36,065 bases of DNA from an uncultured Ruminococcus sp. Lineage in GTDB: Bacteria; Bacillota; Clostridia; Oscillospirales; Acutalibacteraceae. Location: the NCBI GenBank assembly GCA_902778175.1, contig CACYWT010000018.1, positions 1 through 36,065 on the forward strand, written 5' to 3'. The notes under the pieces are model-generated. The model was given only the letters and a program-made list of their open reading frames with translations. It was not told where the DNA came from and searched no databases. Of this stretch, positions 9,065 to 36,065 are shown piece after piece. The position numbers and the translations under genes were made by a program. Position 1 is the first letter of the stretch. Every line of letters starts with the position of its first letter.

Positions 9065-9160
9065 TTAAAAGCTTTGCTTTCAACAAGCAAAGGCAAGCCG
9101 TAGGCTTGCTGTCGTTCAGTGGGAGATTTTTACTCCCACTGAACGGATATATGGCACCCG
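9065..9160 (-). repeat. 95-base three-hairpin repeat, copy 1 (pflB leader)
   Basis: The first 95 bases are identical to copies at 9374-9469 and 35971-36065, in the same orientation; copies 1 and 2 also share base 96. On the minus strand it folds into three perfect hairpins: an 11-bp stem GTTCAGTGGGAG-type arm with a seven-base loop (plus-strand arms about 9115-9125 and 9133-9143), GCAAGCC/GGCTTGC with a three-base loop, and CTTTGCTT/AAGCAAAG with a five-base loop. The flank 9157-9174 adds a CCCG/CGGG dyad whose inner bases differ from copy 2. It lies 51 bases upstream of the pflB start. Confidence 0.9.
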
Positions 9161-9292
9161 AGCTGATTCCGGGCTTTGTCAACCTAAAAAGGAGTCTTTC
9201 CCGAATTATCGTGCAAAGTCAATAAAAAAAGAAATACCGACAATATTCTTTCTGCCATTTTGCCAAGCCGTATTTTCTTTATAAACACTATA

Positions 9293-9322
9293 TATTGTGT
9301 ATGATACATTCTGTATACAATA
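9293..9322. promoter_or_regulatory. Imperfect inverted repeat, candidate regulator site
   Basis: The arms TATTGTGTA and TATACAATA are inverted repeats with one mismatch around a 12-base centre, in the AT-rich stretch upstream of pflB. The TTGTG/ACAA character vaguely recalls redox-regulator sites such as Rex, but spacing does not match the Rex consensus. Confidence 0.3.
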
Positions 9323-9373
9323 CCTATAGTATATACGGGCAGAAAAAACTTTTCTCTCATATTTTCCGGCAGC

Positions 9374-9469
9374 TTAAAAGCTTTGCTTTCAACAAGCAAA
9401 GGCAAGCCGTAGGCTTGCTGTCGTTCAGTGGGAGATTTTTACTCCCACTGAACGGATATATGGCACCCG
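9374..9469 (-). repeat. 95-base three-hairpin repeat, copy 2
   Basis: This copy is identical in sequence to copy 1 over 96 bases, while the flanking DNA differs. It lies 360 bases upstream of pflB and 56 bases before the helicase promoter. It is followed on the plus strand by a CCCGGG/CTCGGG dyad (9466-9482), equivalent in position but not in sequence to the dyad beside copy 1. Confidence 0.9.
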
Positions 9470-9524
9470 GGCGAGACTCGGGGGACATACTTTGCGGTTA
9501 TACCCGGCACTCCGCCGGTTCAAA

Positions 9525-25179: not shown

Positions 25180-25245
25180 ACTGATAAAAAAGAAAAAGCA
25201 GATGTGGTGCTAAGCCGTAAGGCGGTCTCCCAGTGGTGTTGCCTT
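25170..25245 (-). mobile_element. MITE-like repeat, partial copy at the 3' end of the GNAT gene
   Basis: Read on the minus strand, this begins AAGGCAACACC and shares GACCGCCTT, GGCTTAGC-type sequence, ACCACATCTGCTT and GCACAAA with 34859-34936 in the same order. The right terminal repeat seen in that copy is missing here. Its first bases overlap the TAA stop of the GNAT gene. Confidence 0.65.
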
Positions 25246-28980: not shown

Positions 28981-29004
28981 AACAATTCACCTCCTTGAAA
29001 TATG

Positions 29005-29134
29005 ACGCAAAAACGCGCCTTCCCTTTCCCGAGAAGGCGCGCAATTATACTGATATAATATAATCACATACGCTTACCTCGGCAGGCGGGAAACCCATTA
29101 TGCATTACTGCACCTGCTGTCTTAGGTGACAGCA
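29005..29134 (-). ncRNA. L10 leader (autoregulatory RNA)
   Basis: On the minus strand the transcript start is followed by the conserved CACCTAAGACAGCAGGTG arm (29111-29128) and later TTTCCCGCCTGCCGAGGTAA, the kink-turn partner of the L10-binding fold. A terminator hairpin comes next. L10 in complex with L12 binds such leaders and promotes early termination, matching stalk-protein output to ribosome need. Confidence 0.93.
29009..29042 (-). terminator. Attenuator terminator in the rplJ leader
   Basis: On the minus strand CGCGCCTTC pairs with GAAGGCGCG around a ten-base loop, followed by TTTTT, 28 bases upstream of the rplJ start. It is the regulated terminator of the L10 leader. Confidence 0.9.
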
Positions 29135-29140
29135 TTTGAT

Positions 29141-29169
29141 ATTATAGCACACCTGAGTGCGTATGTCAA
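29141..29169 (-). promoter_or_regulatory. Sigma-A promoter of rplJ-rplL
   Basis: Minus-strand consensus TTGACA (29164-29169) and TATAAT (29141-29146) are exactly 17 bases apart, directly upstream of the L10 leader. Confidence 0.95.
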
Positions 29170-34800: not shown

Positions 34801-34859
34801 CAGGTATTACTCAGGTCAAGAAAACTATCCTGTCACAAATTTGAAAGATCAATTATTAA

Positions 34860-34967
34860 AGGCAACACCGCACAAAGACCGCCTTGCAGCTTAGCACCAC
34901 ATCTGCTTGCTCTTTTTCCGTCATTCTGCACAAAACTTGCTTGATAACCGTCAGGTTGGTATTGCCT
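34860..34967 (+). mobile_element. MITE-like element with terminal inverted repeats downstream of luxS
   Basis: The left end AGGCAACACC (34860-34869) and right end GGTATTGCCT (34958-34967) are inverted repeats with one mismatch, bounding 108 bases with no gene. The left 78 bases recur near 25170-25245. Both copies lie just downstream of a gene, in the same orientation relative to it. Confidence 0.7.
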
Positions 34968-35970: not shown

Positions 35971-36065
35971 TTAAAAGCTTTGCTTTCAACAAGCAAAGGC
36001 AAGCCGTAGGCTTGCTGTCGTTCAGTGGGAGATTTTTACTCCCACTGAACGGATATATGGCACCC
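35971..36065 (-). repeat. 95-base three-hairpin repeat, copy 3 (cut by window end)
   Basis: All 95 visible bases match copies 1 and 2, with the same orientation. It lies 16 bases upstream of the DUF3592-type start, so its last hairpin sits next to that gene's ribosome binding site. The outer flank is outside the window. Confidence 0.9.

Follow-up and report, generated by a model that had tools for sequence, protein, structure and literature searches.

A small hairpin-rich element that seems to have spread recently to TTAT sites in an uncultured Ruminococcus genome, and the palindromic module nested within it

The DNA analyzed here (the window, 36,065 nucleotides) is the entire contig C18 of a 118-contig draft genome of 2.69 Mb from an uncultured Ruminococcus sp. 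Three copies of a repeat were confirmed within it, starting at 9065, 9374 and 35971, all on the + strand and identical over 95 bases. Copy 1 (9065..9160) consists of the left 96 nt of the element, its right end being absent and probably lost by a false join. In copy 2 (9374..9501) the left 96 nt (9374-9469) are joined to the last 32 nt (9470-9501), within which the target TTAT is found at 9498-9501. Copy 3 (35971..36065) comprises the left 95 nt and is cut at 36065 because this position is the end of the contig. Each copy contains three hairpins, at 9072-9092, 9093-9109 and 9113-9145 in copy 1, at 9381-9401, 9402-9418 and 9422-9454 in copy 2, and at 35978-35998, 35999-36015 and 36019-36051 in copy 3. 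The three stems, with loops of 5, 3 and 7 bases, were seen on both strands of the 95-base repeat, which folded better than its shuffles with z values of -6.18 and -5.95 for the two strands (0 of 200 shuffles in each case). The original prediction had treated these 95 bases as the element. The repeat is real, but its length is not that of the element; the common stretch is an assembly limit, since copy 3 is cut by the contig end, and the 95-base repeat makes up the left half of a DNA element that is short and rich in hairpins.

The element was found in a short form of 131-132 nt, a full form of 194-195 nt and a mini form of 51-57 nt, with conserved ends which read 5' TTAAAAGC...CTTTGCGG 3' on the + strand. 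Exact patterns of these ends matched 70 left ends, of which 32 are forward and 38 reverse, and 62 right ends in the genome, with 0 matches to reversed control patterns for either end, and searches with the left and right halves of the element each returned at least 40 scored matches. Full-length copies of 194-195 nt are represented by L016 and L028 and short copies of 131-132 nt by L038, together with L040, which carries point changes. The relatives G013 and G020 also have short and full forms, each with one base less. Of nine mini copies recovered, four share one sequence and lie in separate places, an indication that minis too have moved. The retrieved loci contained 72 distinct left ends, of which 3 belonged to intact copies, 10 ran into a contig end, 9 were minis, 8 had no right end and 42 were followed by an internal junction. 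At one locus (L022, C17:39157) approximately 145 nt of unrelated GC-rich sequence separates the left and right parts of the element.

The positions of these interruptions were strikingly uniform. Thirty-eight of the 42 internal-junction copies have one side 92-100 nt from an element end, 7 of the 8 copies without a right end stop at 94-98, 9 of the 10 copies which run into a contig end stop at 94-97, and the match of window copies 1 and 2 to the element extends over its leftmost 96 bases. The break reflects a length and not a site, because this distance leads to a different point of the sequence in the short subtype. The recurrent break at about 96 nt would thus appear to be the k-mer-length limit of the assembly, and most internal-junction copies, including window copies 1 and 2, are probably misjoined; an assembly artefact is also the probable origin of the junction in copy 2 between the left 96 nt and the last 32 nt. 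At two of the three empty sites described below, flank bases absent from the draft could be read in the relative G069. Real internal deletions as the source of most of the unique junctions were rejected because of the 92-100 nt rule (38/42) and these missing flank bases. We infer this origin of the false joins from the draft assembly. The junction copies L035, L053, L054 and L066 and the nine minis fall outside the misjoin explanation.

The nearest relative found by DNA identity was G069, a genome which is 76% complete and holds 2 exact left ends, against 70 in the genome studied here. The joined flanks of 47 copies were searched in G069 and a second relative, G044. At one G069 site the match spanned the junction and had four additional bases, TTAT; at this locus there are three empty sites in G069 where three copies are present in our genome, with TTAT adjoining each right flank. 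All three empty sites lie in this single G069 locus, and for the remaining 46 of 47 joined sites no junction-spanning match was obtained in G069 or G044. Insertion at the three empty sites was immediately before TTAT (ATAA on the other strand). Right junctions from the own genome and relatives, located with anchors that exclude the end bases, were followed by TTAT in 82/83 cases and TTGT in 1/83, and the fifth base was A in 75/83; at left ends from the same sources, TAAAA preceded the anchor in 78/81. No consistent target duplication was found in 66 flank pairs, an ambiguous TTA aside; a TTA duplication and no duplication are indistinguishable because nearly all left ends begin with TTA. No terminal inverted repeats were seen on reading the element ends, as the original prediction had stated, and its further suggestions of recent spread and of mobility were supported by the 70 versus 2 exact left ends and by the three empty sites. 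The element is very probably mobile, and about seventy sites in this genome seem to have acquired it recently.

A search with the full element gave matches in 18/40 relatives, many of the matches covering only the stretch of the nested module described below. The element of G008 keeps the hairpin layout with different sequences, its ends being TTAAACAAG and GTTAT. A check for compensatory changes, as had been proposed, was run on 15 full elements and indicated that the stems are conserved across related Ruminococcus elements, 17/60 pairs having changed on both sides versus 11.0 +/- 1.3 in shuffles (0/500). These counts are not independent events because about three lineages are represented among the 15 sequences, and one of them (RUG12488) is a poor fit. 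Further pair types were no higher than in shuffles (34 vs 33.8). By eye, the right linker seemed able to pair with hairpin 1 in three lineages; this pairing was dropped, as the count did not support it and a one-column slide scored higher. A second, related element family was encountered at two loci of the own genome (L441, C21:67000-69500; L442, C38:17000-19500) and one of G012 (L443). It has the same outer bases, TATAACC, and end hairpin with a different linker.

With respect to function, the repeat had been proposed to be a leader-RNA module. A cis-acting leader or regulatory RNA which spread as such would account for the strong conserved stems, for the two window copies upstream of start codons, and for the left ends which face a gene 5' end in 46 of the 70 with a left neighbour. 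The common orientation of the window copies is, however, not general, left ends across the genome being split between 32 forward and 38 reverse, and neither is placement upstream of genes: a crude ORF screen around 72 copies found 74 neighbours with their 5' end towards the element and 54 of the 128 with their 3' end towards it, 33 of each lying within 100 bases. Three of the 72 copies fell inside ORFs by the same screen. No Rfam family was assigned to the element at cut-off in the scanned loci, the best sub-threshold score being 24.1 vs 43.2 bits. The consistent 5' UTR position and orientation expected of a leader RNA or riboswitch was not observed. The leader-RNA reading is therefore unsupported, as copies adjoin gene 3' ends as well as 5' ends, occur in both orientations and match no Rfam family, and we consider it very unlikely. 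The original prediction had named scatter in orientation and position, with broken stems, as evidence against itself; scatter was found with a mild bias, and the stems were conserved and not broken. The bias consists of 26/72 copies oriented with the local coding majority (p = 0.024), and positive GC skew was found on the + strand of the element in 25/72 copies (p = 0.013).

A terminator was also considered. Hairpins of -12 kcal/mol or lower were present in the 45 nt left of the element in 13/72 copies, and control windows shifted by 10 to 800 nt gave 4 to 10 of 71-72, so that a terminator target was too weak to claim; a first scan for perfect stems, which was overly strict, gave almost no matches. 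Both leader RNA and terminator were set aside on their inconsistent placement around genes. The same Rfam analysis detected an ordinary ribosomal protein leader, L10_leader, at 29000-29144 (-) of the window (71.7 bits; cut-off 44). Another dispersed repeat (AAGGCAACACCGC...) is present in the window as an inverted pair at 25187-25245 and 34859-34917, which are 85% complementary, and a sequence very like it had about 40 matches in G069.

These observations favor a recently active, non-autonomous MITE/PATE-like element moved in trans, for which an IS200/IS605-type single-strand transposase is the likeliest agent, and we hold this overall reading to be probable. A transposase encoded elsewhere would recognize the element ends and hairpins in single-stranded DNA, one cut would follow ATAA on the minus strand and the other the ...CTTTTAA end, and the excised piece would be pasted beside a new TTAT. 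The likeliest enzyme would be an IS200/IS605-type TnpA (HUH, Y1), for example the product of the one intact Y1 gene of this genome, which by reading has a TnpB-type gene beside it. The suggestion of a protein-binding repeat would survive only in the sense of such transposase recognition. In the end hairpin adjoining TTAT, 22-23 of 24 bases are those of the hairpin at the left end of IS605-type elements from this genus, and TAACC, which precedes this hairpin on the minus strand of the element, also precedes it in 6 of 7 IS605 left ends examined. The IS605-like hairpin is absent from the mini copies, and the other end of the element was unmatched. The available text of one source describes a guide tetranucleotide at the hairpin foot which dictates the target of IS200/IS605 elements (PMC6006769); by reading, G000 and G008 have different bases 5' of the foot and the same target TTAT, contrary to this rule. 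Y1 matches were obtained in 17/64 genomes of the genus and their presence does not follow the element: none was found in the element-bearing G008, G012, G013 and G069, and those of G020 and G044 are broken or partial. The IS605 of G008 may have been lost from the draft, because four of its left ends hit contig ends. An autonomous copy was sought by eye among the coordinates of the exact left and right ends, and none was found to enclose a transposase gene. Taken on its own, the assignment of the mover to the IS200/IS605-type Y1 class is about evenly balanced.

A MITE-like element moved by another enzyme, either a DDE transposase making a 3-bp TTA duplication or a recombinase acting at TTAT, would fit the lack of correspondence between Y1 genes and the element, and a left end in TTA beside a right target of TTAT would allow for such a duplication. 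The site-specific recombinase version parallels a suggestion made for the bcr repeats of Bacillus cereus, and the available text on bcr1-bcr3 of the B. cereus group ties these repeats to a TTTAT motif (PMC6542083). The absence of terminal inverted repeats, by reading, and the resemblance of the end hairpin to that of IS605 both weigh against another enzyme, which we regard as possible and the less favored of the two. Classical MITE features were likewise lacking, with no inverted termini by reading and no consistent duplication in the 66 pairs.

Ends-only, PATE-like derivatives of IS200/IS605 have been described (PMC7290912), and as far as the available text of that source sets out the family rules, our element appears to resemble them in having no terminal inverted repeats, no resolvable target duplication and a short fixed target, together with subterminal hairpins and an end hairpin which resembles that of local IS605 elements. 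Unlike PATEs, it has several hairpins and not one per end, its minis have no IS605-like hairpin, and its guide-target relation changes between lineages (by reading). It also resembles bcr1-bcr3, as these are described in the accessible parts of two sources (PMC6542083; PMC3446304), in being a small dispersed repeat of mobile type with tens of copies and a short T-rich motif; the motifs are TTAT here and TTTAT there, and the likeness is one of description. The host is different, and the available descriptions of the bcr repeats contain no counterpart of the nested module. By analogy, the element would be close in habit to the B. cereus bcr repeats and would work like a PATE or MITE. With respect to REP/RAYT-type repeats, the high copy number, palindromic character and location mostly outside ORFs (crude screen) are shared, and REP transposases belong to the same HUH superfamily according to the available text of PMC6006769. 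A unit of 131-195 nt with conserved ends and several hairpins differs from the 21-65 nt of REP, and the single Y1 gene lies beside a TnpB-type gene (by reading), as in IS605; membership of this family appears most improbable. An integron attC site was rejected, as no matching layout was seen by reading. The exact 33-nt left end matched 0 viral contigs, and plasmids gave no match to the full element. A literature search covering mainly open-access papers identified no description of the element, which may have been published elsewhere; two papers that it listed mention Ruminococcus along with one repeat term (PMC2828477, PMC6712873).

The full form differs from the short one by a 63-nt palindromic module, which is inserted into the fourth hairpin at its loop. 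In G006 and G030 the module lies, by eye, in the loops of other hairpins. It is free of stops in all six frames by hand count, and its peptide was found in 10/197 genomes of the order, including the source genome. A phage gene with a C5-methyltransferase match (PF00145, E 1.1e-7) carries the module; compared with two alleles without it, the module is a clean 63-nt insertion with one mismatch at the edge, and it was carried by 3/80 related viral loci, the query's own included. Nineteen placements were obtained from 19 viral loci, one locus giving none and one giving two. For eight of the 19 the surrounding stop-to-stop frame has 241-755 aa and the reading is CGCPVDTS in every one, with L416 and L422 looking like one gene twice, and L425 and L429 likewise. 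Pfam analysis of the viral frames covered L268 and L267 only, and L267 gave no match. In a ninth long frame (L431) the module is in another reading near the frame start, and the remaining ten placements are in frames of 46-159 aa and may be non-coding. The module is also in frame in a TnpV protein (PF14198) of G250; in the TnpV-like copies of L310, L311 and L318 it seems, by reading, to be out of frame. Loci with the module in frame in phage genes and the TnpV gene are L267, L268, L416, L422, L425, L429, L430 and L308. Searches of phage records gave 3 matches by module DNA and none by module peptide. In the Ruminococcus phages PV036433.1 (38345-38410) and PV036441.1 (27765-27830) (L432, L433) the module (88% identity) lies within a 216-nt CDS whose annotation is on the other strand. 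Plasmids gave only 28-base Sinorhizobium matches to the module (E 0.4).

Rickettsia palindromic elements are described, in the available text of PMC10969869, as palindromic, dispersed and present in frame within genes in one consistent reading with a conserved peptide. On that description our module is similar, being palindromic, dispersed and in frame in genes in one reading with a conserved peptide, and its in-frame presence extends to unrelated genes, namely the phage frames and the TnpV gene. It differs in its length (63 nt vs about 150), in its hosts, which are Clostridia, their phages and a mobile-element gene, and in being carried in non-coding repeats as well; the likeness is one of behavior. 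These data may describe a two-layer system, in which a TTAT-targeting carrier holds an independently mobile, coding-tolerant 63-nt module of Clostridia and their phages, a reading which we judge as apt to be wrong as right. On this view, given the same even weight, the module would occupy loops in several dissimilar non-coding repeats found across the order and would also lie, in one preferred reading, in frame in long phage genes and a mobile-element protein. The nested coding-tolerant module is the most unusual feature of the element.

An apparent regulatory RNA is recast as a very probable mobile element, for which a target site is defined and empty alleles are at hand. For draft genomes, identical repeats longer than the assembly k-mer can create false junctions. 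The module would be a further case, far from Rickettsia, of frame-preserving palindromic DNA in protein genes, and the tolerance of such insertions would become testable in phages.
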